A stretch of 64,000 nucleotides of DNA from Pseudarthrobacter psychrotolerans (GTDB lineage: Bacteria > Actinomycetota > Actinomycetes > Actinomycetales > Micrococcaceae): positions 434,001 to 498,000 of the forward strand of contig NZ_CP047898.1 in the NCBI RefSeq assembly GCF_009911795.1. The letters are read 5' to 3'. How positions within the stretch are numbered: the stretch's first letter is position 1; each line of letters begins with the position of its first letter. Position numbers and translations under genes: made by a program. Under the pieces are notes generated by a model that did not search any database, was not told the DNA's origin, and saw only the letters and a list, made by a program, of their open reading frames with translations. This document shows positions 7,563 through 56,835 of the stretch, piece by piece.

Positions 7563-8038
7563 ATGGTTGGCCACGAACAGGAACCTGCCGAAGGCGACTA
7601 CGGCACAGGGCGGCCAGGGCTTCGGAGACCACCTCGATCCATCTCACCCCCGTCACCGACGAGCCCACCATCGCCCCGAAGCTGTCCACGGAAGAGCGTT
7701 CGTCCGTAGAGGCGTTGCCGGCCGGTTCTGCGCTCCTCGTTGCCCATAGCGGCCCGAACGCGGGCGCCCGCTTCCTCCTGGACACGGACACCACCACGGC
7801 CGGACGCCATCCTGACGCCGACATCTTCCTTGACGACGTCACCGTGTCGCGCCGCCACGTCGAGTTCCGACGCACTGCGAGGAGCTTTGAAGTGGTTGAT
7901 ACAGGCAGCCTCAACGGCACGTACGTCAACCACGACCGCGTGGACAGCGTTGAACTAAGGTCCGGGAACGAAGTCCAGATCGGCAAGTTCCGACTCACCT
8001 TCTACCTGAGCCCTGCCCGCGCAGCAGGCCGCGCCTGA
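7563..8038 (+). CDS. garA: GarA/OdhI FHA-domain regulator (reading frame broken by an apparent 1-base deletion)
   Basis: Small FHA protein that in mycobacteria and corynebacteria binds 2-oxoglutarate dehydrogenase and glutamate-metabolising enzymes until phosphorylated by PknB/PknG. The FHA domain (AGRHPDADIFLDDV, SRRHVEF, GSLNGTYVN, EVQIGKFRL) is intact from 7715. Upstream in that frame the sequence reads ASETTSIHLTP, containing the ETTS phosphorylation motif, but has no start codon. ATG 7563 with GAGGAGG seven bases before it opens a different frame (MVGHEQEPAEGDYGTGRPG). One extra base between about 7608 and 7621 would join the two. Otherwise only a TTG at 7715 would be available, losing the ETTS motif. 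Probably a sequence error. Confidence 0.8.
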
Positions 8039-8049
8039 TACCGGGACAC

Positions 8050-8778
8050 TTGCCTGTGGCAATGGCACAACCGGAACGCCGGGGGCCCCAAGTTCTGAAC
8101 ATCGGGGAAGTCCTCGCGCAGCTCAGCGGCGACTTTCCGGGTATGACTGCGTCGAAAATCAGGTTCCTGGAGGAAAAGGGACTGATTAATCCGCGCCGTA
8201 CGCCGGCCGGATACCGGCAGTACTCGGACGGTGACGTCGAACGTCTCCGTTTTGTGCTGGCGCTGCAGCGGGACCAGTACCTCCCGCTGAAAGTCATCAA
8301 GGACTACCTTGATGCGATTGACAGGGGGGAGCGGCCGGAGAACCTGCCGCCCGGCGTCGTAGTTTCGCCGCGGATCGTTTCGGATGAACTGGCCATGGAG
8401 CTTCAGAACCGCGGACGGAAATTCACCGAGGAACAGCTGCGGACTGAATCCGGCGCCAGCATTCCGTTGCTCCAATCCCTGCTGAGCTTCGGGCTGATCA
8501 GCCACAGCAACGGTAAGTTCGACGAGCACGCCCTCCAGGTTGCCCGTGCCTGCGTGCAGCTGGAGAGCCACGGCCTTGAACCGCGCCACCTGCGTCCGTT
8601 CCAGGCCGCCGCGGAACGTGAATTCGGGCTCGTGGAGCGGGTAGTCGCGCCGCTCGCGTCCCGGCGCGATTCCGCGTCACAGGCGCGGGCTGCGGAAGCG
8701 GCCCGCGAGATCAGCGACCTCTGCCTGGTCCTGCACCGGGCACTGGTCCAGGACCGTATCTCACGTATGGACATCTGA
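8050..8778 (+). CDS. ftsR: MerR-family regulator, FtsR/Rv1828 type
   Basis: MerR-type winged-helix regulator. The N-terminal HTH region reads NIGEVLAQLSGDFPGMTASKIRFLEEKGLINPRRTPAGYRQYS, shortened here to its start and end features: GMTASKIRFLEEKGL and RRTPAGYRQYSDGDVERL. In Corynebacterium the orthologue FtsR activates ftsZ. The position after gcvH-garA matches Rv1828. The start is uncertain among TTG 8050, GTG 8056 and ATG 8062, with only a weak GGGA upstream. The stop overlaps the next start (ATGA). Possible operators are described at 9291 and 45784. Confidence 0.85.
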   Translation: MPVAMAQPERRGPQVLNIGEVLAQLSGDFPGMTASKIRFLEEKGLINPRRTPAGYRQYSDGDVERLRFVLALQRDQYLPLKVIKDYLDAIDRGERPENLPPGVVVSPRIVSDELAMELQNRGRKFTEEQLRTESGASIPLLQSLLSFGLISHSNGKFDEHALQVARACVQLESHGLEPRHLRPFQAAAEREFGLVERVVAPLASRRDSASQARAAEAAREISDLCLVLHRALVQDRISRMDI

Positions 8779-9281
8779 TGATCGAAGTGGAGATCGTCGG
8801 CGTTCGCATCGAACTGCCGTCCAACCAGCCGCTCGTCCTGCTGCGCGAGATCCACGGCGAACGCCACGTGCCCATCTGGATCGGGACGCCGGAGGCAAGT
8901 GCCATCGCCCTGGCCCAGCAAGGGGTAGTGCCTCCACGCCCGATGACGCACGACCTCCTGGTGGACGTGGTGGAATCCCTGGGCCACTCGGTTGTCAGCG
9001 TCAACATTGTGGCCGTTGAGGACAACATTTTTTATGGCCAGCTCCAGTTCGAGAACGGCACCACGGTCAGCTCACGTGCATCGGATGCCCTCGCGATCGC
9101 ACTGCGGGCCAAGTGCCGCATCTGGTGTGCCGACTCCGTGATGGATGAAGCCGGAGTCCGCATCACCGAGCATGACGAGGGCGAGGACACCGACCCCGGC
9201 CCCACCGTGGATGAGGAACGCGAACTGCGGCGGTTCCGTGAGTTCCTGGACGATGTCGAGCCGGAAGACTTCGACGGCTGA
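8778..9281 (+). CDS. bifunctional nuclease family protein (DUF151, Rv1829-like)
   Basis: The 167-residue protein begins MIEVEIVGVRIELPSNQPL and has the family segments VLLREIHGERHVPIWIG and ARASDALAIALR-like VSSRASDALAIALRAK. Its C-terminus is acidic. Plant members have been reported as nucleases, but the bacterial role is not established. The gene overlaps ftsR by 1 bp and holds the position of Rv1829 between the two MerR genes, so it is likely co-transcribed with ftsR. Confidence 0.85.
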   Translation: MIEVEIVGVRIELPSNQPLVLLREIHGERHVPIWIGTPEASAIALAQQGVVPPRPMTHDLLVDVVESLGHSVVSVNIVAVEDNIFYGQLQFENGTTVSSRASDALAIALRAKCRIWCADSVMDEAGVRITEHDEGEDTDPGPTVDEERELRRFREFLDDVEPEDFDG

Positions 9282-9290
9282 GGTCACGCT

Positions 9291-9315
9291 AAGGTTAAAG
9301 TTGAGCCTGAAAGTT
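9291..9315. promoter_or_regulatory. AAGGTTAA-containing repeat, candidate MerR (FtsR-type) site
   Basis: In the 239-bp spacer before the second MerR gene, AAGGTTAAAGTT (9291-9302) is followed by AAAGTT at 9310-9315. The core AAGGTTAA also occurs in the ftsZ promoter at 45810-45817, where it belongs to an inverted repeat. Binding by FtsR is inference from the shared core and the adjacent ftsR gene. The rest of the spacer has no gene. Confidence 0.35.
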
Positions 9316-9520
9316 CCGACACGCCTGCACCAAGGAGCCTAGATCTTTGACCTTGGGGCGCGGCGGGCCTAACGTCGAAGGTATCAAGCTCCCATTGCTT
9401 ACAGCAGCCGCGCAAGTCACACTGTAAAAGTACGACCCCCGCGAAATTACATGCATGGACTTCATGCGTGCACCGGCTGATGCAGTGGTCCCCCGGGAGC
9501 TTATAAGAAGGAGGATCCAG

Positions 9521-10117
9521 GTGAGTCCCAAAGGCGAAGCAGGCGGGCTGAAGCAGCCCACAACGGCTGGTGTGGCTGTGCCCGCGAGCGGTGCCCAGGG
9601 CCTCCTGTTTACCGAAGACCTTCCCGTCCTGGACGAGGATGCCGGATACCGCGGCCCCACGGCCTGCAAGGCCGCCGGCATCACGTACCGCCAACTGGAC
9701 TACTGGGCACGGACCGGGCTGGTTGAGCCCGCAGTCCGCGGCGCCGCAGGTTCCGGCTCGCAGCGGCTCTATGGCTTCCGTGACATTCTCGTCCTCAAGG
9801 TCGTCAAGCGGCTCCTGGACACCGGCGTTTCCCTTCAGCAGATCCGCACGGCGGTGGAACACCTGCGCGAACGCGGTGTGGAGGATCTGGCACAGATCAC
9901 GCTCATGAGCGACGGCGCGAGCGTCTACGAATGTACGTCCGCTGATGAGGTCATCGATCTTGTCCAAGGCGGCCAAGGCGTTTTCGGCATCGCGGTGGGC
10001 AGGGTCTGGCGCGAAGTCGAAGGCAGCCTGGCATCCCTGCCGAGCGAGCACGCCGCCGAACAGTCCTTTCCCGACGACGAGCTGAGCAAGCGGCGCGCTT
10101 CCCGCAAGATCGGCTGA
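9521..10117 (+). CDS. second MerR-family regulator (Rv1830-like)
   Basis: 198-residue MerR regulator. The HTH core is visible in ACKAAGITYRQLDYWARTGL and GSQRLYGFRDILVLKVVKRL, followed by LDTGVSLQQIRTAVEHLRERG. Its C-terminal part is unlike FtsR. I chose GTG 9521 because AAGGAGG at 9508-9514 precedes it by 6 bases; the frame could extend to 9455. Rv1830 in mycobacteria has the same neighbours. Its targets cannot be read from the sequence. A strong terminator follows. Confidence 0.85.
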   Translation: MSPKGEAGGLKQPTTAGVAVPASGAQGLLFTEDLPVLDEDAGYRGPTACKAAGITYRQLDYWARTGLVEPAVRGAAGSGSQRLYGFRDILVLKVVKRLLDTGVSLQQIRTAVEHLRERGVEDLAQITLMSDGASVYECTSADEVIDLVQGGQGVFGIAVGRVWREVEGSLASLPSEHAAEQSFPDDELSKRRASRKIG

Positions 10118-10141
10118 CACGCCAGGCTGACCAACGCTAAC

Positions 10142-10179
10142 AGAAGAGGCCACCTCCGGCAGCGGGGGTGGCCTCTTCT
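10142..10179 (+). terminator. terminator after the second MerR gene
   Basis: Arms AGAAGAGGCCACC (10142-10154) and GGTGGCCTCTTCT (10167-10179), 13 bp, with a 12-base loop and a short pyrimidine run after it. It closes the gcvH to MerR group and faces the convergent ParA gene. Confidence 0.8.
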
Positions 10180-10193
10180 TCTTGTCCGCGGAA

Positions 10194-10226
10194 CCCACGG
10201 CTGCAGCGGAGCGCTGCAGCCGTGGG
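10194..10226. terminator. 15-bp hairpin downstream of the ParA-like gene
   Basis: Perfect arms CCCACGGCTGCAGCG (10194-10208) and CGCTGCAGCCGTGGG (10212-10226) with a GAG loop, ending 2 bp from the ParA stop on the minus strand. There is no T tract. Together with the hairpin at 10142 it separates the convergent genes. Confidence 0.6.
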
Positions 10227-10227
10227 A

Positions 10228-11061
10228 TTACCGCTGGGTACGGTTTCGCAGGCCGCTTCCGGTCGCCAGGAGGTTGACCAGGAGGGCGTCGAACAACGCG
10301 GCGGATGACTTCGCGGATTCCCCAGGCCAGTGGTGCACCGGATGGGCCGCGCCCTGGATCTGCTGCCAGTTCGCCTGTTCAGGGATGCGCGGGCTCAATA
10401 GGAGGTCACCGAACATCGATTCCATTTCCGCGAGCCGGTACGTGTGTTCGGAGGAGCCCGTGCGCACGCGGTTGGCCACAATGCCTGCAGGGGATAGGTT
10501 GGGCGCGAATTCCTGCTTGAACAGCTGGATGGCGCGCATGGTCCGTTCCGTTCCCGCTACGGAGAAAAGTCCCGGCTCGGCCACGAGGGCCACCTTGTCA
10601 CTCGCGGACCAGGCCATCCGGGTCAGCCCGTTCAGCGACGGCGGGCAGTCAATGAGGACCAGCTCGTAGCGGTCGGCGCCGGCCAGGACTGCGGAAAGCC
10701 TGCGGAGATCCCGACGGCCAAGGTCGGGGCGGTCATAGATGCCGGTGTAGGCCGAACCCACCGCGACGTCCAGTACGGCCGGTCCGGATCCGTTTGTATG
10801 CGCCCGTGCCGTCCAGGAGCTGCCAGCGACATTGTCCGCCAGTTTGGCGCGGCGGGGGCTCTTGAGCATCCTGCCGATGTCCAGCTGGTCGCCGACCTGG
10901 ACCCCCAGTGCAGTGGTCGCATCCGCATGGGGATCGAGGTCCACCACCAGTGTGGGGATGCCCGCGGCAAGCGCCGCAGACGCCAATCCTGTGGTGACGG
11001 ACGTCTTGCCGACTCCGCCCTTGAGGCTGCTGATGCTGACTACTTGCACTTGTGAGACCAA
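10228..11061 (-). CDS. orphan ParA-like ATPase
   Basis: Deviant Walker A ATPase of the ParA/MinD/Soj superfamily. The motif KGGVGKTSVTTGLA is near residue 14, followed by LVVDLDPHADAT (Walker A' region) and VLIDCPPSL (Walker B). 277 residues. No parB or parS site is adjacent, so it is not the standard chromosomal parA of a parAB operon; it could position other cargo or act in division. The start is TTG 11061 or GTG 11049; neither has a strong ribosome-binding site. Confidence 0.8.
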   Translation of the reverse strand: MVSQVQVVSISSLKGGVGKTSVTTGLASAALAAGIPTLVVDLDPHADATTALGVQVGDQLDIGRMLKSPRRAKLADNVAGSSWTARAHTNGSGPAVLDVAVGSAYTGIYDRPDLGRRDLRRLSAVLAGADRYELVLIDCPPSLNGLTRMAWSASDKVALVAEPGLFSVAGTERTMRAIQLFKQEFAPNLSPAGIVANRVRTGSSEHTYRLAEMESMFGDLLLSPRIPEQANWQQIQGAAHPVHHWPGESAKSSAALFDALLVNLLATGSGLRNRTQR

Positions 11062-11350
11062 AACCTAACGCCGGCTGCCGTGTTGGGGGTAATGTTTGCT
11101 CCGGCACTGCCGAAGCCGGCGGCTCGAGCCGCCTCACTCATCATATGTGGCTGCGCCGGTGAATCCCGCCTAATGGGGACACGGCATGGCACGGCGATGG
11201 TATGGGTGGCCGGTTCTGCCAGCCTCCGTTGATGCACGCGGGACATGACGGAAGTTTCTGTGACCGTGGCCACAATGATTTGTATTTCTAAGCGCGGGTC
11301 TTAGACACTGTGACCACTTACCGATACACCCGCAATGATGCAGGAGAATT
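11062..11350. other. intergenic region between ParA-like gene and pyc
   Basis: 289 bp holding the divergent promoters of the ParA-like gene and pyc. AGGAGA at 11341-11346 is the pyc ribosome-binding site. I see no RNA gene, clear hairpin or confident promoter hexamers here. Confidence 0.5.
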
Positions 11351-14300
11351 ATGTTTTCCAAGATTCTGGTGGCCAACCGCGGCGAAATCGCGATCAGGGC
11401 CTTCCGTGCCAGCTATGAGCTGGGCGCCAAGACCGTTGCTGTCTTCCCCAATGAGGACCGAAATTCGATCCACCGCCAGAAAGCCGACGAGGCATATCTG
11501 ATCGGCGAAGTGGGGCATCCCGTCCGGGCCTACCTCGATGTTGCCGAAGTGGTCCGCGTCGCCAAGGAGTCCGGCGCCGACGCCATTTACCCCGGCTACG
11601 GCTTCCTGTCGGAAAACCCCGACCTGGCCCGCGCAGCAAAGGAAGCGGGTATCACCTTTGTTGGCCCGCCAGCTGAGGTGCTTGAGCTGGCCGGCAACAA
11701 GGTGGCAGCGCTGAAGGCTGCCCGCGCGGCCGGTGTTCCGGTCCTGAAATCGAGTGAACCCTCGAAGGACATGGATGAGCTGATCGCTGCAGCCGACGAG
11801 ATCGGTTTCCCCATCTTCGCCAAGGCCGTCGCCGGCGGCGGCGGCCGTGGCATGCGCCGCGTCGAGACGAGGGAAGCCCTTCCCGAGGCGCTGCTGGCCG
11901 CCATGCGCGAAGCCGATGCGGCATTCGGTGACCCCACGATGTTCCTGGAGCAGGCAGTGCTCCGCCCGCGCCACATCGAGGTGCAGATCCTCGCCGATGC
12001 CGAGGGCAATGTCATCCACCTCTTCGAACGTGACTGCTCCATCCAGCGCCGTCACCAGAAGGTCATCGAGATCGCTCCCGCACCCAACCTGGACGAAGGC
12101 ATCCGCCAGGCCCTCTACCGTGACGCGGTGAAGTTCGCCAAGGCCCTGAACTACGTCAACGCCGGAACCGTGGAGTTCCTGGTGGACACCGTCGGCGAAC
12201 GCGCCGGACAGCACGTTTTCATCGAAATGAACCCCCGCATCCAGGTCGAACACACCGTCACTGAGGAAGTGACTGATGTCGACCTGGTCCAGGCACAGCT
12301 TCGGATCGCTTCCGGCGAGACGCTCGCGGACCTCGGCCTCTCCCAGGAGACGGTCCAGCTAAAGGGCGCAGCCCTGCAGTGCCGCATCACCACCGAGGAC
12401 CCGGCCAACGGGTTCCGGCCCGACGTCGGGAAGATCACCGGCTACCGCTCCGCCGGCGGCGCCGGTGTAAGGCTCGACGGCGGCACTGTGTACTCGGGTG
12501 CCGAAATCAGCCCGCACTTCGACTCCATGCTCGTGAAGCTGAGCTGCCGCGGCCGCGACTACCCGGCCGCCGTGGCCCGCGCGCGCCGGGCACTCGCGGA
12601 GTTCCGCATCCGTGGTGTGTCCACCAACATTTCCTTCCTGCAGGCCGTACTCGACGACGCCGACTTCATTGCCGGCAACGTTGCCACGAACTTCATCGAC
12701 GAGCGTCCCCAGCTGCTGAAGGCCCGGGTCTCCGCCGACCGCGGCACCAAGCTCCTGACCTGGCTGGCCGAAGTCACGGTCAACAAGCCCAACGGCGAGC
12801 TGAAAGTGCACTCTGATCCGGCTGCCAAACTCCCCGCCGTGGGGGATCGGCAGGCGGCACCAGGATCGCGCCAGCGCCTCCTGGAGCTTGGCCCCGAAGG
12901 TTTCGCCAAGGCCCTGCGTGAGCAGACAGCCGTGGCCGTCACCGACACCACCTTCCGGGACGCCCACCAGTCCCTGCTGGCCACCCGCGTACGGACCCGC
13001 GATCTCGTGGCCGCCGGCCCCGCGGTCACCGCCCTCCTGCCGGAACTCCTGTCCGTTGAGGCCTGGGGCGGCGCAACCTACGATGTGGCGCTGCGCTTCC
13101 TTGGCGAGGACCCCTGGGACCGCCTCGCGGCCCTGCGGAAGGCGCTGCCAAACGTCTGCCTGCAGATGCTGCTGCGCGGCCGGAACACGGTGGGCTACAC
13201 GCCGTACCCGGAAGAGGTGACCGTGGCTTTCGTCAACGAGGCCGCCGCCACCGGGATCGACATTTTCCGCATCTTCGATGCCCTGAACGACGTGAACCAG
13301 ATGGCACCTGCCATCCGCGCAGTCCGGGCCACCGGCACAGCCATAGCCGAAGTGGCACTGTGCTACACCGGCGACATGCTCAACCCGGACGAGAAGCTGT
13401 ACACGCTGGACTACTACCTGGAGCTGGCGCAGCGGATTGTGGACTCCGGCGCCCACATCCTGGCCATCAAGGACATGGCCGGGCTGCTCCGCCCGGCAGC
13501 GGCCGCCAAGCTGGTGGCTGCACTGCGTGAACGCTTCGACCTCCCGGTCCACCTCCACACGCATGACACGGCAGGCGGCCAGCTGGCCACCCTGATGGCG
13601 GCAGTTGACGCCGGCGTGGACGCTGTTGACGTTGCCTCCGCCTCGCTGGCCGGGACCACCAGCCAGCCGTCAGCCTCCGCCCTTGTGGCGGCGCTGGCGC
13701 ACACCCGCGGGACACCGGCTTGAGCCTTGACGCCGTCAGCTCCCTTGAGCCGTACTGGGAAGCTGTGCGCCGCGTATACGCGCCGTTCGAATCAGGTCTT
13801 CCGGGCCCTACCGGCCGTGTCTACCAGCACGAAATCCCGGGCGGCCAGCTGTCCAACCTGCGTCAGCAGGCCATGGCGCTGGGCCTGGGGGAGCGCTTCG
13901 AGGCGATCGAGGACATGTACACCGCGGCGGACCGGATCCTGGGCCGCCTGGTGAAGGTCACGCCGTCGTCCAAGGTGGTGGGCGACCTCGCCCTGCACCT
14001 CGTGGGCCTCAACGCAGATCCCGCGGACTTCAACGAAAACCCGCAGAACTACGACATCCCCGACTCCGTGATCGGCTTCCTGTCCGGCGAACTTGGCGAC
14101 CCGCCCGGAGGATGGCCGGAGCCTTTCCGCACCAAGGCGCTTCAGGGCCGCAGCATCAAGGTCCGTGACGTTGACCTCAGCCCCGAGGACAGCGCCGCGC
14201 TCAAGGGTGATTCCAAAACCCGACAGAGCACGCTGAACCGCCTGCTGTTCGAGGGTCCCACCAAGGACTACCTCAAGAGCGTGGAGACGTACGGCAACAT

Positions 14301-14751
14301 TTCCGTGCTCGACACCCGCGACTACCTCTACGGCCTTCAGCGCGGGGCCGAGCACGAGATCCAGTTGGAGAAGGGTGTCCGGCTGATCGCCTCGCTGGAA
14401 GCCGTTTCCGAGCCCGACGAGAAGGGCATGCGCACGGTGATGTGCACCCTGAACGGCCAGTCCCGCCCCGTTGTGGTCCGTGACCGCTCCGTGGTGAGCA
14501 ACGTCAAGGCCGCCGAGAAGGCAGACCCGGCCCAGCCCGGCCACGTTGCCGCGCCGTTCGCCGGCGCCGTCACCGTGACCGTCAAGGCCGGCGACACCGT
14601 CAACGCCGGTGACACGGTGGCCACCATCGAGGCGATGAAGATGGAAGCGTCCATTACGACGCCGGTGGCAGGCAAGGTCTCGCGGCTCGCCATCTCAGCG
14701 GTGGAGCAGGTCCAGGGCGGGGACCTCCTCCTGGTCGTAGAGCAGGGCTAG
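11351..14751 (+). CDS. pyc: pyruvate carboxylase (interrupted by an apparent 1-base deletion near 13704-13711)
   Basis: Biotin-dependent anaplerotic enzyme making oxaloacetate from pyruvate. The frame from ATG 11351 gives 790 residues: biotin carboxylase domain (KILVANRGEIAIRAFRA, GGGGRGMR, EMNPRIQVEHTVTE) and most of the carboxyltransferase domain (TDTTFRDAHQSLLATRVR). It stops at TGA 13721-13723. Another frame continues at once with LSLDAVSSLEPYWEAVRRVY through the conserved C-terminal region and the biotinyl domain IEAMKMEA (biotin Lys codon 14638-14640). Together about 1,134 residues, the normal length. One added C in the CCC at 13704-13706 restores AHTPRDTGLSLDAV. Almost certainly one gene. 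Confidence 0.92.
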
Positions 14752-14769
14752 GCAGTCCAGGCATAAAAT

Positions 14770-14817
14770 GAAGGGCCCTCCCGGCCTGGAAGATTACTTC
14801 CGCCGGGAGGGCCCTTC
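14770..14817. terminator. bidirectional terminator between pyc and acyl-CoA synthetase
   Basis: Arms GAAGGGCCCTCCCGGC (14770-14785) and GCCGGGAGGGCCCTTC (14802-14817), with an inner GGAAG/CTTCC stem around an ATTA loop. AAAA precedes and GTTTT follows, so it can stop transcription from both convergent genes. Confidence 0.92.
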
Positions 14818-14833
14818 GTTTTGCGTAGCCGCT

Positions 14834-16814: not shown

Positions 16815-16822
16815 GAAGCACT

Positions 16823-31326: not shown

Positions 31327-31496
31327 TCACCTGAACGGCCCGGCGGAACCGCTTCTTGAACGAGATCTCCAGCCGCCCATCGGACAGTCAACCTGGCCTC
31401 ACTTCCCCGGAGCCAGGCCGGCAGGATGATAGGCGCGGATGGGGATCTGGCTCAAGAAGCAGTACACCAGCACCCACGGCAGGAAAGGACGAAGGC

Positions 31497-36756: not shown

Positions 36757-38223
36757 ATGATTGCACTTACTGCGGCGGAAATCGCCGATATCACACACGG
36801 CCGCCTTGACGCCGATCCGGGGATCACACCCCTGTCGGTGGTCACTGATTCGCGGGAGGCTGCCGCCGGGTCCTTGTACGTGGCGAAACCTGGCGAGCAC
36901 GCCGACGGCCACGACTTCGTTGCTGCGGCCTTCGGCCGCGGCGCGGTGCTGGTTCTCGCTGAGCGCCCCGTGACGGGGCCGGACGGCGCTAACTATCCGG
37001 CGGTCCTGGTCGAGGATGCCGTGCTGGCCATGGGCGCGCTGGCGGCCGAAGCAGTGCGTCGGATCCGGCTGGCCCGGTCTGCTGCAGGTGATGCCCTGAC
37101 CGTCATCGGGATCACCGGTTCCGCCGGAAAGACCACCACCAAGGACCTCCTCGCCGGCATCCTCACCGAGCAGGGCGCCACGGTTGCCCCGCAAGGGTCC
37201 TACAACGGCGAGGTGGGCGTGCCGCTCACGGTCTTCCGCGCCGACACCCAAACGCGGTATCTGGTGATCGAGATGGGCGCCACGGGCATCGGGCACATCC
37301 GCTACTTGGCCGACATGGTGAAGCCTGACATCGGCGTCGTCCTCGGCATCGGCACTGCCCACGCCGGGGAGTTCGGCGGCGTGGACAACATTGCCCGGGC
37401 CAAGGGCGAACTGGTGGAGGCTCTCGCCGCCGGCGGCACTGCCGTTATCAACCTCGACGACGACCGCGTAGCTGCCATGCGCAGCCGCACCGGCGCCACC
37501 GTGGTGGGCTTCTCGGCCGAAGGACGCCCTGACGCGACCGTCCGGGCCGTGAATCCGGACACAAACACTGAGGGCAACCCGGAATTCGAGCTCGTCCTGC
37601 CCGGCGGCGAAGCGGGCCTGCACGTCAGCAGCCGCCTCATCGGTGCCCACCACACCGGCAACCTCCTCGCCGCAGCAGCGGCCGCGAACGCAGCCGGCGT
37701 ATCCGGCAAGGACATCGCCGCATCGCTGAGCACACAGTCAGCAGCAAGCCGGTGGCGGATGGAACGCACCGAACGTGCTGACGGCGTGACCGTCATCAAC
37801 GACGCCTACAACGCCAACCCGGAGTCCATGCGGGCGGCCCTGCGTACGCTGGCGGACCTGGGCCGTGGACGGCGCACCTGGGCCGTCCTGGGCGCCATGC
37901 TGGAACTGGGACCTGATTCAATCCGTGAACACACCGTTGTGGGCACCCAGGTGGTCCGCCTGAACATTTCCCGGCTGGTCGTCGTCGGCCGCGAAGCCCG
38001 CGCACTTTACGTTTCCGCCGTCCAGGAGGGTTCCTGGGGCGACGAATGCGTATTTGCCGAAACCGCCGAGGACGCTTATTCGCTCCTGAACGCCGAGCTT
38101 GAGCCCGGCGACCTTGTGCTTTTCAAGTCGTCCAACAGCGTTGGACTGCGCCACCTGGGCGATCGGATAGCATTACCCCCACAATCCACGGAACCCGCCC
38201 ATGAAGGGAGCGAGCTGCTGTGA
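36757..38223 (+). CDS. murF: UDP-MurNAc-tripeptide D-alanyl-D-alanine ligase
   Basis: Adds D-Ala-D-Ala to complete the UDP-MurNAc-pentapeptide. P-loop GITGSAGKTTTKDLLAGIL, GSYNGEVGVPLTV and the motif NDAYNANPESMRAAL are typical. 488 residues. ATG at 36757, 6 bp after murE; its end overlaps the mraY start by 4 bp. Confidence 0.95.
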   Translation: MIALTAAEIADITHGRLDADPGITPLSVVTDSREAAAGSLYVAKPGEHADGHDFVAAAFGRGAVLVLAERPVTGPDGANYPAVLVEDAVLAMGALAAEAVRRIRLARSAAGDALTVIGITGSAGKTTTKDLLAGILTEQGATVAPQGSYNGEVGVPLTVFRADTQTRYLVIEMGATGIGHIRYLADMVKPDIGVVLGIGTAHAGEFGGVDNIARAKGELVEALAAGGTAVINLDDDRVAAMRSRTGATVVGFSAEGRPDATVRAVNPDTNTEGNPEFELVLPGGEAGLHVSSRLIGAHHTGNLLAAAAAANAAGVSGKDIAASLSTQSAASRWRMERTERADGVTVINDAYNANPESMRAALRTLADLGRGRRTWAVLGAMLELGPDSIREHTVVGTQVVRLNISRLVVVGREARALYVSAVQEGSWGDECVFAETAEDAYSLLNAELEPGDLVLFKSSNSVGLRHLGDRIALPPQSTEPAHEGSELL

Positions 38224-39328
38224 TTGCACTACTGATCGGCGCAGGACTTGCCCTGCTGTTTGCCTTGGTGGGAACGCCGCTGTTTATCCGCTTGCTTGTC
38301 CGCAAGAGCTACGGACAGTTCATCCGTGATGACGGACCCACCTCGCACCACACCAAACGCGGTACGCCCACCATGGGGGGCACCGTGGTGGTGGGAGCGG
38401 TCCTGCTCAGCTACGGACTGACCCACCTGATTATGTGGATGATGAACCCGGATTCGGCAGGCCCCTCCGCTTCGGCCCTGATCCTGCTCTTCCTGATGGT
38501 CGGTATGGGGCTGGTGGGCTTCCTGGACGATTTCATCAAGATCTCCCGGCAACGGAGCCTTGGCCTCGATGCGAAGGCCAAGCTCATCCTCCAGGCAGCC
38601 GTGGGCATAGCCTTCGCCATCCTGGCACTGAACTTTCCCGACCCGGACGGCCTGACGCCGGCCTCGACAAAAATCTCGCTGGTCCGTGACATTCCCTGGC
38701 TGGACCTGGCCTTCGCCGGCACGGTGGTCGGCGCAATCCTCTTTGTACTGTGGTCCAACCTGATCGTCACGGCAGCAACCAATGGCGTGAATCTCACGGA
38801 CGGCCTGGACGGGCTGGCGGCCGGCGCGTCGGTCATGGTGTTCGGTGCCTACACGCTGATGGGAATCTGGCAGAACAACCAGGCCTGCGGGTCGCCGCGC
38901 GAGGCCGGCAGCGGCTGCTACTCGGTCCGTGACCCCTGGACCTGGCGCTCCTGGCGGCCATCCTGAGCGCCGCTCTGGTGGGTTTCCTGTGGTGGAATAC
39001 CTCCCCGGCCAAGATTTTTATGGGCGACACAGGGTCGCTGGCCATCGGCGGCGCGATCGCCGGCTTCGCCATCCTGTCGCGCACGGAACTGCTTCTGGGA
39101 ATCGTCGGCGGCCTGTTCGTCCTGATTACCCTCTCCGTGATCATCCAGGTGGGCTACTTCAAGGCCACCGGCGGTAAACGCGTCTTCAAGATGGCGCCGC
39201 TGCAGCATCATTTCGAACTCAAGGGCTGGGCAGAGGTTACGGTGGTGGTCCGGTTCTGGATCCTGGGCGGGCTCTTCGTGGCCGTGGGCCTGGGTGTCTT
39301 CTACGCTGAATGGGTCGTGCTCCTGTGA
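38220..39328 (+). CDS. mraY: phospho-MurNAc-pentapeptide translocase (frame interrupted by an apparent 1-base deletion near 38933)
   Basis: Membrane enzyme making lipid I. Frame one (38220-38966) carries [25 protein letters not shown] and the catalytic [10 protein letters not shown], then ends abnormally in [12 protein letters not shown]. The remaining conserved part, [21 protein letters not shown] and [12 protein letters not shown], continues in another frame to 39328. Changing CCCC at 38933-38936 to five C restores [23 protein letters not shown], exactly the expected sequence, in a protein of about 369 residues. Because mraY is essential, a sequencing error is the likely cause. Confidence 0.93.
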
Positions 39329-47117: not shown

Positions 47118-47125
47118 GGCCCGGG

Positions 47126-48548: not shown

Positions 48549-48636
48549 CGTCGAAACCATAGGAAGTGAGTGGCGGGGGATTCAAGGCTGTCAAGTCATT
48601 GGGCGGCCCGCCTACGGACACGATTAGGAGTCGACC

Positions 48637-49167
48637 ATGGCCGGCGCTCTGCGCAAGACAATGATCTATCTTGGGCTCGCCGACGGCGATGAACACTACG
48701 AGTCCGAGCACACCACAACACGTAAGGACGAGGACGATTCGATGGAAGTTGACCGCGAGGAACGCCGTGCACCGGCACCTGTCCGCGATGTCAGCCGCGA
48801 GTCATCTCACGCCCCCGAAGAGGAATACCGCGCACCAGTGACCCCCATCAAGCGTGCGGCCTCGAGCCGCGAAGAACCGTCCGGGCTTCGGCAGATCACC
48901 ACGATCCACCCGCGGTCCTACAACGACGCCAAGCTCATCGGTGAGAGTTTCCGGGACGGCATCCCCGTCATCATGAACGTGACCGACATGGGCGAAGCGG
49001 ACGCCAAGCGTCTCGTCGACTTCTCGGCGGGCCTGGTTTTCGGGCTCCGGGGCAGCATCGAACGGGTCACCAACAAGGTATTCCTGTTGTCGCCGTCGTA
49101 CATTGAGGTCATTGGCGATGACAAGAAGGTCAGCGAGACCCAGGCCAGCTTCTTCAATCAAAGTTAG
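48637..49167 (+). CDS. sepF: Z-ring membrane anchor SepF
   Basis: Links FtsZ to the membrane in actinobacteria, which lack FtsA. 176 residues: N-terminal amphipathic segment ([16 protein letters not shown]), acidic linker, and the SepF core ([57 protein letters not shown]). AGGAG lies just before ATG 48637. Confidence 0.95.
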
Positions 49168-49182
49168 CCCTGAGCTTATTCC

Positions 49183-49214
49183 AGATGCCAGACAGGTACA
49201 CCTGTCTGGCATCT
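49183..49214 (+). terminator. hairpin after sepF
   Basis: Perfect 15-bp arms AGATGCCAGACAGGT (49183-49197) and ACCTGTCTGGCATCT (49200-49214) with an AC loop. There is no T tract, so it could be an inefficient terminator or a processing hairpin between sepF and yggT. Confidence 0.6.
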
Positions 49215-49287
49215 GTGCTGAAATAGACAAGAAACATTGGCAGGGCACCGCGGTATCCGGAATGGACATGGAGATATGAGTTAAGTC

Positions 49288-49575
49288 ATGGGAATTGTTT
49301 TCGGACTTGTCTATATCGCCCTTTTGCTGTTCTTCGTGGCACTGATCATCCGGCTTGTCTTTGACTGGGTCCAGATGTTTGCCAGGGAATGGCGTCCGCG
49401 TGGTGTTGCCCTCGTGGCGGCCCACACGGTGTACTCGATCACCGATCCGCCGCTCAAGGGGCTCCGGAGGCTGATCCCGCCATTGAGGCTCGGAGGGGTC
49501 ACCTTGGACCTCGGGTTTCTGGTCCTGTTCATCGCCGTCAGCATCGCGATGGCGGTCACCAGGGGATTCGCGTAA
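49288..49575 (+). CDS. YggT-family membrane protein
   Basis: 95 residues with two membrane helices, VFGLVYIALLLFFVALIIRL and LDLGFLVLFIAVSIAMAV, flanking a polar loop containing SITDPPLKGLRRLIPPLRLGG, whose DPPL..LR.IPP pattern marks the YggT family. Regularly found between sepF and divIVA; exact role unknown. A 177-bp spacer with the divIVA promoter follows. Confidence 0.88.
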   Translation: MGIVFGLVYIALLLFFVALIIRLVFDWVQMFAREWRPRGVALVAAHTVYSITDPPLKGLRRLIPPLRLGGVTLDLGFLVLFIAVSIAMAVTRGFA

Positions 49576-49752
49576 TCTTCGACAAGACCTAGCGGCACAG
49601 GCGAAGTTCCTGGAATTGGAACTCCCCGCGTGTCGCGAAGAAATCTCCGGTTTGACACCCAGTGTTGAATTAGAGGAACCAGACAATATTTAGGTACCGT
49701 AGTTTTGACGGCCGGAAGGCCTACTGACTAACTAGACCAATGAGGTGACCAG

Positions 49753-50448
49753 ATGGCTTTGACGCCAGAAGACGTTGTCAACAAGCGCTTTCAGCCGACC
49801 AAGTTCCGCGAAGGCTACGACCAGGATGAAGTTGATGACTTCCTGGACGAGATCGTTGTGGAACTCAGGCGCCTGAACCAGGAGAACGACGAGCTCCGCA
49901 AGAAGCTTGCAGAATCAGGTTCCGGCGTGCCGGCCAGCTCCGCTGCGTCCGCCCCGGTGGTCGAGAAGGTTCCCGCGCCCGTCAAGGCTGAGAAGGTTGA
50001 GTCCCCGGCGAAGGCCGAGGTCGAGGCGAAAGCCCCCGAGGCCGCCAAGAAGAAGGAAGCCGAGCCTGCAGGGCCTGTTGCGGCTGTTCCGGCTGCTGCG
50101 CCCGCCGCATCCGCTGGAAGCACGGTTTCGGCCGAGTCCGCTGCCGGACTGCTCGCCATGGCGCAGCAGATGCACGACCGTCACGTCGCCGACGGTCAGT
50201 CCCAGAAGGACAAGATCATCGCCGAGGCCCAGATCGAGGCCAGCAGCCTGGTCAACGATGCCCAGGAGAAGTCCCGCAAGATCCTCGGTGCCCTTGAGCA
50301 GCAGCGCTCCGTCCTGGAACGCAAGGTCGAGCAGCTTCGCGGCTTCGAACGCGACTACCGTTCACGCCTGAAGGCCTACATCGAAGGCCAGTTGCGCGAC
50401 CTTGACGCCCGCGGTTCCGTGGCGGCGCCTGAGGTCGAAGCGAACTAG
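49753..50448 (+). CDS. divIVA: polar growth scaffold DivIVA/Wag31
   Basis: Coiled-coil protein that marks curved membrane and directs polar wall synthesis. N-terminal MALTPEDVVNKRF, FREGYDQDEVDDFLDEIV is the DivIVA membrane-binding domain with its coiled coil; a long Ala/Pro/Glu/Lys linker separates it from a second coiled coil (about residues 135-215). 231 residues. Ends the dcw region. Confidence 0.94.
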   Translation: MALTPEDVVNKRFQPTKFREGYDQDEVDDFLDEIVVELRRLNQENDELRKKLAESGSGVPASSAASAPVVEKVPAPVKAEKVESPAKAEVEAKAPEAAKKKEAEPAGPVAAVPAAAPAASAGSTVSAESAAGLLAMAQQMHDRHVADGQSQKDKIIAEAQIEASSLVNDAQEKSRKILGALEQQRSVLERKVEQLRGFERDYRSRLKAYIEGQLRDLDARGSVAAPEVEAN

Positions 50449-50539
50449 TCCTTCAAGCACGTATTCTGAGAGCCGGTGGCTGAGGATTCCTCGGCCGCCG
50501 GCTTTTGGGATTAACATCGGTTTCACAAATGAAAGCACC

Positions 50540-51129
50540 ATGACTGACCACCTCGCCGCTGACGCCGCAAACCCTCCTCCTTCATCGTCCCGCCCCCGCG
50601 GGCACTCCTGCTCTCGCTCTTCGCCGGTTTTGCGGCCTTTGCGTACGTCCTGGACCAGCTGACAAAACTGTGGGTGACGTCCTCGATGGTGGAGGGTGAA
50701 CGCATCCAGGCGCTGCCGCCGCTCCTGCACTGGTACTTCATCCGTAATTCCGGCGCCGCATTTTCGATCGGGGAGAACGTCACATGGGTGTTCTCCATCA
50801 TCATGGCCGGCGTCTCCATCGCCATCCTGTTCCAAGTGCGCAAGCTGGGCTCGGCCTGGTGGTCGCTGGCACTGGGCCTTCTCCTGGGCGGGGCCCTGGG
50901 CAACCTGACGGACAGGCTTTTCCGGGAGCCTTCCTTCGGGATGGGGCACGTGGTGGATTTCATCCAGCTGCCCAATTTTGCGATCTTCAACATCGCCGAT
51001 TCCGCGGTGGTCTCAGCAGTGGTCATCATCTGCATCCTGACGTTGCGGGGGATCGCCCTGGATGGCTCACGGCACGTCGCGGTGCCACGGAAAGAGGCGG
51101 CCCAGCCGAAAGACACCGACGATGCCTGA
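50540..51129 (+). CDS. lspA: lipoprotein signal peptidase (frame interrupted by an apparent 1-base deletion near 50593-50602)
   Basis: Membrane aspartyl protease that cleaves prolipoprotein signals. The frame from ATG 50540 ([20 protein letters not shown]) breaks off, while the frame from about 50600 reads [24 protein letters not shown] and on through [24 protein letters not shown] and [20 protein letters not shown], which contain the catalytic Asp residues. One extra base in CCCCC (50593-50597) or GGG (50600-50602) unites them into about 197 residues. Overlaps rluD by 8 bp. Confidence 0.9.
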
Positions 51130-52048
51130 GCGTGTGGTGGTCGCCGACGAATTCGGCGGAACGCGGGCTGACGCCGGGCTCGCCAAGCTGATGGGGATAT
51201 CCCGGTCAATGGCCGCGACCCTCATTGCCGAAGGCAACGTGCTCAGCCGCGGCAAGAAACTCGGTAAGTCCGCGCGGTTGGTTGCCGGCGATGTCCTGGA
51301 AGTGACGGTGCCTGAACGACGGGACCCGCTCGAAGTAGTGGAGGAAGTTGTGGAAGGCCTGAAAATCCTGCTGGACGACGACGAATTTGTCGTGGTGGAT
51401 AAGCCGGTGGGCGTTGCCGCACATCCTTCCCCCGGCTGGGTAGGGCCCACCGTGGTCGGCGGTCTCGCGGGAGCGGGATTCCGCATCTCGACGTCGGGCT
51501 CACCTGAGCGGGTGGGTATCGTGCACCGGCTCGACGTCGGCACGTCCGGGGTGATGGTGGTGGCCAAAACGGAACGCGCCTACACAGCCTTGAAGCGGGC
51601 CTTCAAGGAGCGCACTGTGGAGAAGGTCTACCACGCGGTGGTCCAGGGGCTCCCGGACCCCCTGGAGGGCACCATAGACGCACCAATCGGGCGCCACCCG
51701 GGACACGACTGGCGTTTTGCCGTGATCGAAGACGGCCGGCCGTCGATTACGCACTACGAAGTGCTGGAGGCTTTTGGCAAGGCCACACTTGTGGAGGTGC
51801 ACCTTGAGACAGGGCGAACTCACCAGATCCGTGTCCACTTTTCAGCGTTGCGGCACCCGTGCGCCGGAGATCTGACCTACGGGGCGGATCCCCGGCTCGC
51901 CGCCACCCTGGGCCTGACCCGGCAATGGCTCCATGCCCGGCAGCTCGGCTTCGACCACCCGGCAACGGGGGAGCGCGTGACCGTGACCAGCGAATACCCG
52001 CAGGACCTGGCCTTTGCCCTGGAAGTCCTGGCGTCGGGGGAGGCGTAG
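51122..52048 (+). CDS. rluD: 23S rRNA pseudouridine synthase, RluD family
   Basis: Pseudouridine synthase of the RluA/RluD type, 308 residues. An S4 domain ([20 protein letters not shown]) precedes the catalytic domain with the motif [17 protein letters not shown], whose Asp is the catalytic residue, and [17 protein letters not shown] 51122 overlaps the lspA stop; the frame extends 20 codons further inside lspA. lspA-rluD coupling is common. Confidence 0.93.
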
Positions 52049-52098
52049 CGGCTGGGTCGCTGGGCCGTTGGCGGTCCGCCAGCGCTTAGAATGGTGCG

Positions 52099-55000
52099 GT
52101 GACTTCCAGCAATGCCTCGTTCGTCCATCTCCATAACCACACCGAATACTCCATGTTGGACGGCGCAGCCCGCCTGGGTGAGCTCTTCAACGAGACTGAA
52201 CGCCTCGGGATGCCGGCCCTGGCCACCACCGACCACGGGTACCTGTTCGGAGCCTTCGATTTCTGGAAACGCGCCACGGACCAGGGGATCAAGCCGATTA
52301 TCGGCGTCGAGGCCTACGTCACCCCCGGCACCGCGCGGACGGACAAAAGCCGTGTGCGCTGGGGCGAGGAACACCAGCGCAAGGACGACATCTCCGGCGG
52401 CGGCTCCTACACCCATATGACGCTGTTGAGCTATAACAACGTCGGCATGCGCAACCTCTTCCGGGCCTCGTCCATTGGCTCGCTGGACGCAGTCTTCGGC
52501 AAATGGCCTCGTTTGGACCGTGAGCTGTTGAACACATACTCCGAAGGCCTGATCGCCACCACTGGCTGCCCTTCAGGCGAAGTGCAAACCCGCCTGCGGC
52601 TGGGCCAGTACCGCGAGGCCATGGAAGCTGCCTCGGAATTCCGTGACATTTTCGGTGCGGAGAACTACTTCTGCGAACTGATGGACCATGGCCTGGACAT
52701 CGAACGCCGGGTCACGGGCGACCTTCTGCGGCTGGCCAAGGATCTTAACCTGCCCCTGGTGGCCACCAACGATCTGCACTACACGCACGAACACGATGCC
52801 AAGGCACACGAGGCCCTGCTTGCCATCCAGTCAGGTTCCACGCTGCTGGAGCCATCGTATGACAACGGCGGCTCTCGCTTCGCGTTCTCCGGCAGCGGCT
52901 ACTACCTCAAGTCTCCGCAGGAGATGCGGGAGTTGTTCAGGGACCACCCGGAGGCTTGCGACAACACACTGCTGATCGCCGAGCGCTGCGATGTCTCGTT
53001 CAACACCGGCGCAAACTACATGCCGCGGTTCCCCTGCCCGCCGGGCGAGGACGAGACATCCTGGCTGGTTAAGGAAGTTGCCACCGGACTGGAATACCGG
53101 TACCCGGGCGGTGTTCCGGATAAAGTCCGCACGCAGGCTGACTACGAGCTCGAAGTCATCACCTCCATGGGGTTCCCGGGATACTTCCTGGTGGTGGCAG
53201 ACTTCATCAACTGGGCAAAGAAAAACGGCATCCGCGTCGGTCCGGGCCGTGGCTCCGGAGCCGGCTCCATGGTGGCGTACGCCATGCGCATCACGGACCT
53301 TGATCCGCTCCTGCATGGCCTGATCTTTGAACGGTTCCTCAACCCGGACCGTGTGTCCATGCCTGACTTCGACGTTGACTTCGATGACCGTCGCCGGTCA
53401 GAGGTCATCGACTATGTGACCCGGAAATACGGCGACGAGCGTGTGGCCATGATTGTCACGTACGGCACCATCAAGACCAAGCAGGCGCTGAAGGACTCCT
53501 CCCGTGTGCTGGGTTACCCGTTCAGCATGGGGGAGCAGCTGACCAAGGCACTCCCGCCGGCTGTGATGGCCAAGGACATTCCGCTCGCCGACATCCAGAA
53601 CAAGGACTCCAAGCGCTACAGCGAGGCCGGTGACTTCCGCCAGCTGATCGCTACGGATCCCGAGGCCGCCAAGGTCTTCGAGACGGCGCTCGGTATCGAA
53701 GGGCTGAAGCGCCAGTGGGGCGTGCACGCCGCCGGCGTCATTATGTCCTCGGACCCCATCATCGACGTCATCCCGGTCATGCGGCGCATCCAGGACGGCC
53801 AGGTGATCACGCAGTTCGACTACCCCACCTGCGAGGGCCTGGGCCTGATCAAGATGGACTTCCTCGGCCTGCGGAACCTGACGATCATTTCCGACGCTTT
53901 GGAGAACATCAAGCTCAACCGCGGCCTGGATCTGGACCTGGACAGCCTGGCCCTTGATGACGTGGCCTCGTACGAACTGCTGGCCCGGGGCGACACCCTG
54001 GGCGTGTTCCAGCTTGATGGCGGCCCCATGCGCTCCCTGCTTAAGCTGATGAAGCCTGACAACTTCGAAGATATCTCGGCCGTGCTGGCGCTTTACCGGC
54101 CCGGCCCAATGGGCGCCAACGCGCACACCGACTACGCGCTGCGCAAGAACGGGATCCAGGAAGTCATCCCGATCCACCCCGAACTCAAGGAACCTCTTGC
54201 TGAAATCCTTGGCGGGACCTACGGCCTGATCGTCTATCAGGAGCAGGTTATGGCCGTGGCGCAGAAACTCGCCGGCTATTCCCTCGGGCAGGCGGACATC
54301 CTGCGGCGCGCCATGGGTAAAAAGAAAAAATCCGAGCTGGACAAGCAGTTCGCAGGTTTCTCCCAGGGCATGCAGGACAACGGCTACTCCATGGCCGCCG
54401 TCAAGACCCTTTGGGACATCCTGCTGCCGTTCTCCGACTACGCATTCAACAAGGCCCACTCCGCCGCCTACGGTGTGATCTCCTACTGGACCGCCTACCT
54501 GAAGGCGCACTTTGCGCCGGAATACATGGCTGCCCTGCTGACGTCGGTCGGTGACGACAAGGACAAATCGGCAATCTACCTCAACGAATGCCGGCGCATG
54601 GGAATCACCGTGCTGCCGCCGGACGTGAACGAATCCGCGCTGAACTTCACCCCGGTAAGTACCGACATCCGCTTCGGCATGGGCGCCATCCGCAACGTGG
54701 GCGTCAACGCCGTCGAAGCCATGGTGGCCGCACGCGAAAAGGAAGGCGCCTACACGTCCTTCAAGGACTACCTCATGAAGGTTCCCGCCGTGGTCTGCAA
54801 CAAGCGGACCATTGAATCCCTGATCAAGGCCGGGGCCTTCGATTCCCTCAACCACCACCGGCGCGCTCTGGCGATGATCCATGAAGAGGCCATCGACTCC
54901 GTCATTACCCTCAAACGAAACGAAGCGATCGGCCAGTTCGATCTCTTCGCCGGTTTCGAGGAGGCCGAATCCGAAGCATCGCTGAGCATCGAGATTCCCG

Positions 55001-55656
55001 ACCTGCCGGAATGGGAGAAGAAGGACAAACTCTCGTTTGAGCGTGACATGCTTGGCCTGTACGTGTCAGACCACCCGCTGCAGGGCCTGGAAGGACTCCT
55101 CAGCCAGCACGCGGACCAGTCCATCACCTCGATCATCGGCGAGGACGGGCCGCACGACGGCGCCATCATCACCATCTCCGGCATGATCACCTCGCTCAGC
55201 CGAAGGATCGCCAAGGCCAGTGGCAACGCCTATGCCCGCGCCGAAATCGAAGACCTCGGCGGTTCGATGGAGGTGATGTTCTTCGGCCAGGTCTACGGCC
55301 CCATCGCGTCGGTCCTTGCCGAGGACCTGATCGTAGTGGTCAAGGGCCGCCTGCAGCGGCGGGACGACGGAGCCGTGGCGCTGAACTGCATGGAACTGTC
55401 CGTGCCGGACCTCAGTGAAGGAACCAACGGCCCCGTGCTCATTTCGATGCCCACCCACAAGGCCACCGAGGCTGTGGTCACCGAACTGGGCGACGTCCTT
55501 CGGAACCATCGGGGGAACTCGGAGGTCCGGCTGCACCTGCAGGGTGACACCCGAACGGAAGTCATGGGGCTGCCCGTCCATCTCAGGGTCAACCCCAGTC
55601 CTTCACTGTTCGGCGATCTGAAGGTGCTCCTGGGCCCAACCTGCCTGGATAACTAG
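52099..55656 (+). CDS. dnaE: DNA polymerase III alpha subunit
   Basis: Replicative polymerase, 1185 residues. N-terminal PHP domain (VHLHNHTEYSMLDG), the nucleotide-site motif RVGPGRGSGAGSMVAYA, catalytic acids in PDFDVDFDDRRR, and the later QLDGGPMRSLL and YQEQVMAVAQKLAGYSLGQAD segments; C-terminal OB fold (ITISGMITSLSRR). GTG 52099 lacks a ribosome-binding site but has TAGAAT at 52087-52092, 6 nt away, predicting a leaderless transcript. Confidence 0.96.
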   Translation: MTSSNASFVHLHNHTEYSMLDGAARLGELFNETERLGMPALATTDHGYLFGAFDFWKRATDQGIKPIIGVEAYVTPGTARTDKSRVRWGEEHQRKDDISGGGSYTHMTLLSYNNVGMRNLFRASSIGSLDAVFGKWPRLDRELLNTYSEGLIATTGCPSGEVQTRLRLGQYREAMEAASEFRDIFGAENYFCELMDHGLDIERRVTGDLLRLAKDLNLPLVATNDLHYTHEHDAKAHEALLAIQSGSTLLEPSYDNGGSRFAFSGSGYYLKSPQEMRELFRDHPEACDNTLLIAERCDVSFNTGANYMPRFPCPPGEDETSWLVKEVATGLEYRYPGGVPDKVRTQADYELEVITSMGFPGYFLVVADFINWAKKNGIRVGPGRGSGAGSMVAYAMRITDLDPLLHGLIFERFLNPDRVSMPDFDVDFDDRRRSEVIDYVTRKYGDERVAMIVTYGTIKTKQALKDSSRVLGYPFSMGEQLTKALPPAVMAKDIPLADIQNKDSKRYSEAGDFRQLIATDPEAAKVFETALGIEGLKRQWGVHAAGVIMSSDPIIDVIPVMRRIQDGQVITQFDYPTCEGLGLIKMDFLGLRNLTIISDALENIKLNRGLDLDLDSLALDDVASYELLARGDTLGVFQLDGGPMRSLLKLMKPDNFEDISAVLALYRPGPMGANAHTDYALRKNGIQEVIPIHPELKEPLAEILGGTYGLIVYQEQVMAVAQKLAGYSLGQADILRRAMGKKKKSELDKQFAGFSQGMQDNGYSMAAVKTLWDILLPFSDYAFNKAHSAAYGVISYWTAYLKAHFAPEYMAALLTSVGDDKDKSAIYLNECRRMGITVLPPDVNESALNFTPVSTDIRFGMGAIRNVGVNAVEAMVAAREKEGAYTSFKDYLMKVPAVVCNKRTIESLIKAGAFDSLNHHRRALAMIHEEAIDSVITLKRNEAIGQFDLFAGFEEAESEASLSIEIPDLPEWEKKDKLSFERDMLGLYVSDHPLQGLEGLLSQHADQSITSIIGEDGPHDGAIITISGMITSLSRRIAKASGNAYARAEIEDLGGSMEVMFFGQVYGPIASVLAEDLIVVVKGRLQRRDDGAVALNCMELSVPDLSEGTNGPVLISMPTHKATEAVVTELGDVLRNHRGNSEVRLHLQGDTRTEVMGLPVHLRVNPSPSLFGDLKVLLGPTCLDN

Positions 55657-55666
55657 GTTCCGGCAG

Positions 55667-56164
55667 TCAGATCTCGTAGTCCAGCGGGACCGGCTGGCCA
55701 TAGCCGCCGGCGTGGTATAGCAGCGGCGAACCGTCGTCGCCCACTTCGCCGTCCACAACTTCGACCACCACCACGGCGTTGTTCTCGAAGGAGAGCCGCA
55801 TCTGGATCTTGCCGATCAGCCAGCCCGCGACGTCTTTGAGGACCGGGACCTCGTGCGGGCCAAGTTCCCAGTGGTCCCCGCCGAACCTGTCCTTGGTACG
55901 CGCGAAACGGTCGGCCAGCGCCTGGTTTTCCAGACCCAGCATGTGGACGCCGAGGTGGGTGGCGTTGGCCACCGCCGGCCAGGAACTTGAACTGCGCGCC
56001 ATGTTGAAGGTGAACCGCGGCGGCTGTGCGGACAATGACGCCACGGACGTGGCGGTAAATCCGTAGGGTTCGCCCTGGTAGTTCACGGTGATGATGGCGA
56101 CCCCGGCCGCATGCCGCCGGAACATTTCCTTGAAGGTGCCCTCGAACGGCGTCTTGTCTGTCAT
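55667..56164 (-). CDS. flavin reductase-like domain protein
   Basis: 165-residue FMN-binding split-barrel protein of the HpaC/flavin reductase family. Typical segments are FRRHAAGVAIITVNYQGEPYGFTATSV, PPRFTFNMARSSSSWPAVANA and RFGGDHWELGPHEVPVLKDVAGWLIGK, cited here only by key words HAAGVAI, GFTATSV, SSSWP. It could supply reduced flavin to an oxygenase; no partner gene is adjacent. Converges on dnaE. Confidence 0.85.
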   Translation of the reverse strand: MTDKTPFEGTFKEMFRRHAAGVAIITVNYQGEPYGFTATSVASLSAQPPRFTFNMARSSSSWPAVANATHLGVHMLGLENQALADRFARTKDRFGGDHWELGPHEVPVLKDVAGWLIGKIQMRLSFENNAVVVVEVVDGEVGDDGSPLLYHAGGYGQPVPLDYEI

Positions 56165-56302
56165 CTTGAACGTGGCTCCCTGAAAAAGCAGGCTGAAATG
56201 GACTCTTCCTTAAGGGTATTAGTCCCCGCCGGACAGGGAGCAATCGCTGGACCCGGCACGTCATCTGATCAGCCACACCCGACATTTGTTAAGGTTTGTT
56301 TC

Positions 56303-56835
56303 ATGAGAGAACACATCAGCCGCCGGTCTTCCCGGCTGCCGTGGAAATGGTTTGCCGCTGCTGCCGCCGGTGGTGTTCCCGTCGGCCTGCTGTGGTGGCT
56401 GCTCGCCCCCGGGGGATGAACCTGATCACCCGCAACCCGGCCTTCGCGGACGGGACAAATCCGGAGGTATGGCTGCTCAGGGACCTCACCCTTGCTGGAC
56501 TGTGTGTCTTCGCAGGGTGCCTGGTGGCCGTCTTCCTGACCGACAAAAGCGGCCGCAATGCGCAGGCTGCCTTTCTCCTGGGTCTGGCCGGCGGAGTGGG
56601 CGGCGCCCTGATCGCGTGGCTGACTGGCGTGCTTGCGGGTCAGTTGTGGGGCGGACCCGCAGATACGTCGGTCAATGCCAGCGTCGCGTTCTCGCTCCGG
56701 TCCCTGCCCGTGCTTATCCTGTGGCCGGCCGCGACTGCCACGTCCGTGTTTGTCCTGAGCCTGATGAACCTGCTCAAGAACGGCCCAGAGGGTCCGGGCA
56801 TGCCGGTAGCCGAAGGCAGCACACCCGGCGAGTAA
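56303..56835 (+). CDS. small multi-pass membrane protein (frame interrupted by an apparent 1-base deletion near 56406-56415)
   Basis: The frame from ATG 56303 gives MREHISRRSSRLPWKWFAAA and a helix ending in GLLWWLLAPGG before TGA 56417. Adding one G to the GGGGG at 56411-56415 joins it to NLITRNPAFADGTNPEVWLL and three more hydrophobic segments (LAGLCVFAGCLVAVFL, LLGLAGGVGGALIAWLTGV, LPVLILWPAATATSVFVL). The joined protein has about 177 residues and four helices. A WWLLAP motif after helix one occurs in several small actinobacterial membrane proteins. No function assigned. Confidence 0.7.

Follow-up and report, generated by a model that had tools for sequence, protein, structure and literature searches.

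Introduction

The closest described cases are bacterial genome assemblies built from long reads, in which single bases were lost or gained at homopolymer runs. According to the cited part of its report, the Streptomyces albus SM254 genome still held 205 indels in 7.17 Mb after PacBio polishing, nearly all of them in G or C runs, and these were fixed with Illumina reads before release (PMC4832174). In nanopore assemblies, the section of the Kastor work used here describes most indel errors as false deletions, chiefly after runs of four to five, with a minority that delete a non-repeated base (PMC12007338), and an excerpt of a comparison of assembly strategies gives indels in 664 of 2116 genes for an unpolished nanopore assembly, a figure that fell to 278 when the same reads were used for polishing (PMC8306402). 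Moreover, Arthrobacter sp. Hiyo4 (AP014718) was assembled from PacBio RS II reads, and its authors, in the portion of the paper concerned, remarked that the number of CDSs was exceptionally large and described desA and desB, in the desferrioxamine cluster, as carrying nonsense mutations (PMC4712596).

Here, we describe a 64,000-nucleotide stretch of the Pseudarthrobacter psychrotolerans genome, hereafter the window (bases 434001-498000 of contig 1 in an assembly of 5.17 Mb and 3 contigs; GC content of 65%), in which five genes each lose the reading frame once. Like S. albus SM254, as the extract of that report presents it, the focal genome belongs to a high-GC actinomycete and seems to carry hundreds of one-base-scale errors at G/C runs; unlike in S. 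albus, these errors appear to remain and, by extrapolation, lie more densely. The sites also differ from those in the cited Kastor section, where A/T runs come foremost (PMC12007338), in that they stand at C/G runs.

Materials and methods

The comparison covered 364 kb surrounding the window plus five distant samples of 40 kb each, near 1.06, 1.26, 1.40, 1.50, and 4.25 Mb, in all about 0.56 Mb of the 5.17 Mb, and less where a relative had no counterpart. The window falls in the Arthrobacter/Pseudarthrobacter group: in the best segment, its DnaE shares 99% identity with that of Pseudarthrobacter sp. HLT1-5, and DNA identity to this strain reaches 94.3% across 13.5 kb around dnaE. HLT1-5, near enough for clean alignment of DNA, was compared over 183 kb of coding sequence. 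At the syntenic place, HLT1-5 lacks about 9.9 kb of contig 1 that lies just downstream of the window (approximately 501890-511826); the stretch searched there is overlapped by six ORFs of at least 200 codons. Among the records encountered, NZ_JADHDY010000001.1, titled Sporosarcina beigongshangi, encodes a DnaE that shares 82% identity with that of the window, equal to the value for Arthrobacter psychrochitiniphilus, and may be misnamed or contaminated.

A first ORF-based frameshift scan was rejected, since antisense ORFs and over-long starts produced numerous false junctions in it; for this reason, genes were chosen by conservation, an identity filter on both sides of the junction was used with relative-versus-relative controls, and the HLT1-5 comparison was made on DNA. 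A junction was called stringent when it had at least 75% identity on both sides and at least 15 residues. For sequence context, 40 sites were entered, comprising 36 stringent ones and four of lower identity, two of these in the window, that were included manually; 2 of the 40 lacked a clean gap; four doubtful sites were kept in the 40, two near 258.8 kb and two in the 1.26-Mb sample near 4.4 kb. Protein identity of broken and intact genes to HLT1-5 was compared for proteins of at least 120 residues and at least 70% identity, the broken set including the site at 60797 and leaving out lspA.

Results

The first-pass annotation had proposed that five genes of the window each lose frame once, always by minus one and in or beside C or G runs. 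The single frame losses were confirmed by tblastn, by DNA alignments to five genus-mates, and by HLT1-5, the breaks lie where that annotation had placed them, and all five are of the minus-one type. Indeed, in local DNA alignments the window was 1 base shorter than all five genus-mates at each of the five sites, and HLT1-5 revealed a one-base gap in the window at 5 of 5, so that the comparison with orthologues recommended there has been run and agrees. The sites do stand in or beside C/G runs, but these runs are short, and at one of them, in garA, the relatives have a T between the Gs.

The garA/odhI-like gene (7563..8035, plus strand) encodes a product with an FHA domain (PF00498), whose best NCBIfam match was OdhI with 179 bits, under the cut-off of 200. 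Its frame is lost once at about 7608-7613, at GGG, and tblastn placed the junction at 7610 against four of five relatives. The T between the Gs is found in all six relatives compared (the five genus-mates and HLT1-5), and the garA break counts as a run-shortening only if the strain carried G at that place, as is possible at a third codon position. In pyc (pyruvate carboxylase; 11351..14751, plus strand), the single loss falls at 13703-13706, where the window has CCC and HLT1-5 a run of four; the junction (13705) was detected against 5/5 relatives, and the two pieces align to positions 4-790 and 789-1146 of the NF009554 profile. The loss in mraY (38220..39325, plus strand) lies at 38932-38936, with CCCC in the window versus a run of five in HLT1-5, and its junction (38936) was seen against 4/5 relatives, the two pieces aligning to profile positions 2-112 and 113-159 of PF00953. 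In all of the 28 relatives compared, the mraY frame runs to 361 codons or more, versus 253 codons in the window.

The lipoprotein signal peptidase gene lspA (50540..51129, plus strand; NCBIfam match NF011354) loses frame once at 50593-50605, in CCCCCGCGGG, with the tblastn junction at 50593-50599 against four of the five relatives. There, HLT1-5 has GG versus G in the window, adjoining C5, and between near-identical flanks HLT1-5 is one base longer. The fifth break, at 56407-56417 in CCCCCGGGGGA, affects a small gene (56303..56835, plus strand) that had been called a membrane gene; its junction (56407-56416) was found against 3/5 relatives, and no Pfam or NCBIfam match was obtained at E 0.001. 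This gene is conserved, with 177-190 codons in three relatives. For pyruvate carboxylase, MraY, and lipoprotein signal peptidase, the intact proteins of relatives exceed the NCBIfam cut-offs.

The presence of mraY and lspA among the broken genes, pointed out in the first-pass annotation, held, and each was found once in the genome: the MraY query matches one place in the focal genome and gave no second mraY, and a single PF01252 (LspA) match left no second lspA. A further PF00953 family member lies at 1500137, where the MraY query gave no match.

Other junctions in the window, at 9428, 28518, 30004, 31461, 31492, 59778, 60771, and 60806, were left uncounted, all but 31492 because the same query gave a junction against another relative too; the one at 31492, with an N-terminal piece of 18 residues, was put down to a differing start codon. 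The junction at 38923-38929, obtained with an ORF of relative G002, falls at the mraY break and was excluded from its support. At window position 60797, a C run shortened relative to HLT1-5 turned out on inspection to be intergenic, upstream of a small plus-strand gene.

Single-base losses recurred well beyond the window. When the focal genome was compared with relative G015, 17 of 33 junctions were stringent, 16 of them minus one (166 genes, 188.8 kb), and with relative G016 the figures were 18 of 32, with 17 minus one (178 genes, 189.6 kb). The five distant regions, aligned to G016, gave 17 stringent junctions out of 29, of which 15 were minus one (132 genes, 148.0 kb), and stringent minus-one junctions were present in every one of them. 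As a control, G015 and G016 were compared with each other both ways; 2 of 11 and 1 of 13 junctions were stringent (175 and 166 genes), all three being plus one, with zero stringent minus-one junctions in about 180 kb. Below the filter, the controls show minus-one junctions too (8 of 21), so that weak junctions prove nothing and were kept out of the rates. Furthermore, in all seven stringent plus-one junctions (four in the focal genome, three in the controls) the N-terminal piece is 16-64 residues long, the pattern expected from a misassigned start codon.

Within genes, the DNA comparison with HLT1-5 disclosed 31 isolated gaps that change the frame: in the focal genome, one base was lost at 24 and gained at 3, two bases were lost at 3, and seven bases were lost at 1. 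When backing by G015 or G016 was required, 22 one-base losses, 1 two-base loss, and 1 one-base gain were left, so that supported one-base losses stood to gains as 22 to 1 (p = 6e-6). In the final 22 losses, 60797 was removed as intergenic and lspA was put in, since the gene choice had picked an antisense ORF there; two unsupported one-base losses (196051 and 223863) were left uncounted, and the loss at 189385 is backed by G015 and HLT1-5, not by G016. The single gain (279087), right at an ATG near the start of gltB, probably lies outside the gene.

These 22 losses amount to one per 8.3 kb of coding sequence, versus 15 in 148 kb, or one per 9.9 kb, in the distant samples, and, in the window, 5 breaks over some 55-57 kb of coding sequence aligned to G015, G013, and G016. 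Since breaks outside the window have about the same density, the five genes are not a local cluster, and extrapolation would give about 400-550 false frameshifts genome-wide. In non-coding sequence, frame-type gaps numbered 49 in the focal genome versus 60 in HLT1-5, with no excess of losses; about 2 errors would be expected in about 18 kb of non-coding sequence and would be swamped by natural indels, so that this count neither supports nor refutes the error reading.

Regarding sequence context, 28 of 38 sites adjoin a C/G run of at least 3, as compared with 14.3% of random positions (p = 2e-16), and the other 10 have no adjoining run of that length. Among the 22 accepted sites, the extra HLT1-5 base lies inside a run of at least 2 at 15 and of at least 4 at 13, and it stands single at 7, garA included; these seven, like the 10 sites with no adjoining run, weigh against the error reading. 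Six of these seven are third codon positions (the exception being 265420), at which the strain could have had the run base instead. Wholesale collapse of long runs was considered and rejected: C/G runs of exactly seven number 20 in the focal genome versus 5-56 in 18 genus-mates and are thus not depleted, which speaks against a simple loss of long runs, and runs of six are mildly fewer, at 0.094 per kb versus 0.175 and 0.149 in two relatives.

Conservation is no lower in the broken genes than in the intact ones. Median protein identity to HLT1-5 was 95.8 for broken genes (n=21) versus 96.0 for intact ones (n=137; p = 0.97). This unrelaxed constraint argues against pseudogenes, and very recent breaks would be compatible with the result. 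Dispensable function or a second copy, as expected of pseudogenes, was not found for mraY and lspA. Also broken are homologues of glnE, hisF, gltB, peptide deformylase, ribD, and HelD/HelR, the last with matches below the cut-offs. Against the error reading, the completeness of the focal assembly, at 99.11%, shows no obvious damage.

A comparable pattern was observed in the Hiyo4 assembly. Over 13.5 kb compared with HLT1-5, it is short of a base at 16 places and has an extra one at two; four of the 16 losses, and zero gains, fall within dnaE. These losses are roughly ten times denser than those of the focal genome, a figure that still includes natural and non-coding indels. In Hiyo4, lspA likewise lacks one base, and the gap lies no more than about 10 bases from the site in the window. 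In addition, Hiyo4 desB matches PF13434 in two pieces, is split where a G run is one base short versus the focal genome, and lacks a second base further along the same reading frame.

Discussion

On the strength of these sequence comparisons, we hold it to be nearly certain that the five frameshifts are errors of the assembled sequence and did not arise by mutation in the cell. In this context, an incompletely corrected long-read consensus would drop one base at a short C/G run or cluster of runs, where the count of bases is uncertain, and the error recurs throughout the sampled parts of the genome, with coding sequence affected about once per 8-10 kb. Taken together, the single sign of the losses, their spread, their run context, the essential genes among their targets, and the unaltered constraint agree with residual error in a long-read consensus. 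Likewise, as would be expected of long-read deletion errors, losses are far above gains, sites are run-adjacent, and they are spread regardless of gene function. The first-pass annotation had favored a homopolymer error in the assembly as the simpler reading, and this is supported by losses that are one-signed, run-associated, present genome-wide in the samples, and unaccompanied by relaxed conservation; only its scale was understated, considering that breaks are similarly dense outside the window.

The cause of the breaks would lie in the sequencing step, and we infer that the assembly was built from long reads (PacBio CLR or nanopore) and received insufficient short-read correction or none, to which 3 contigs for 5.17 Mb would correspond. 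A variant of the assembly-error reading holds that modified C/G-rich motifs were misread by nanopore basecalling, and that run length as such was not the trigger. Some sites do lack a long run, and by eye CCWGG, which we take to be a methylation motif, occurs at garA and mraY, and CCCGCGGG at pyc and lspA; however, the 38 sites, also judged by eye, share only short C/G runs, and we regard this variant as unlikely.

Genuine frameshift mutations, either in pseudogenes or in a mutator strain with slippage in runs, would agree with the sequence as assembled, which does show the breaks, and one-base changes do arise naturally by slippage in runs. Nevertheless, slippage should also produce gains, whereas 22 losses were observed to 1 gain, and the conservation of the broken genes is unrelaxed. 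The breaks also hit mraY, an essential gene, as well as lspA, each found once, and by extrapolation several hundred fresh breaks would be needed per genome, which leaves genuine mutation a very improbable account.

Still less credible is that the bases are truly absent and the frame is restored at C/G runs, either through programmed minus-one ribosomal frameshifting or because the polymerase slips. The sites are run-rich and on either side of them the reading frames continue in register, as such restoration would require; against this, the runs in the focal genome are short, and different genes are affected at unrelated positions. A programmed shift would be expected to have a conserved shift site, but the compared relatives are intact and in frame at the five sites, mraY being intact in 28/28, and G015 and G016 are without a stringent minus-one junction in about 180 kb. 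It would be just as far-fetched to suppose that this lineage tolerates hundreds of minus-one frameshifts, in essential genes too, through slippage of the ribosome or RNA polymerase at short C/G runs.

Under assembly error, the reading that we prefer, the apparent gene breaks are most likely not a real feature of the organism. By extrapolation, annotation of this assembly would create several hundred false pseudogenes or split genes, including mraY, lspA, pyc, and the peptide deformylase gene. A similar artefact could possibly be behind a published biological claim, the loss of desferrioxamine genes in Hiyo4: because desB is split there at a missing base in a G run, its published loss is possibly an artefact, and the nonsense mutations that the Hiyo4 authors described in desA and desB, of which desB alone was compared here, may be assembly artefacts.
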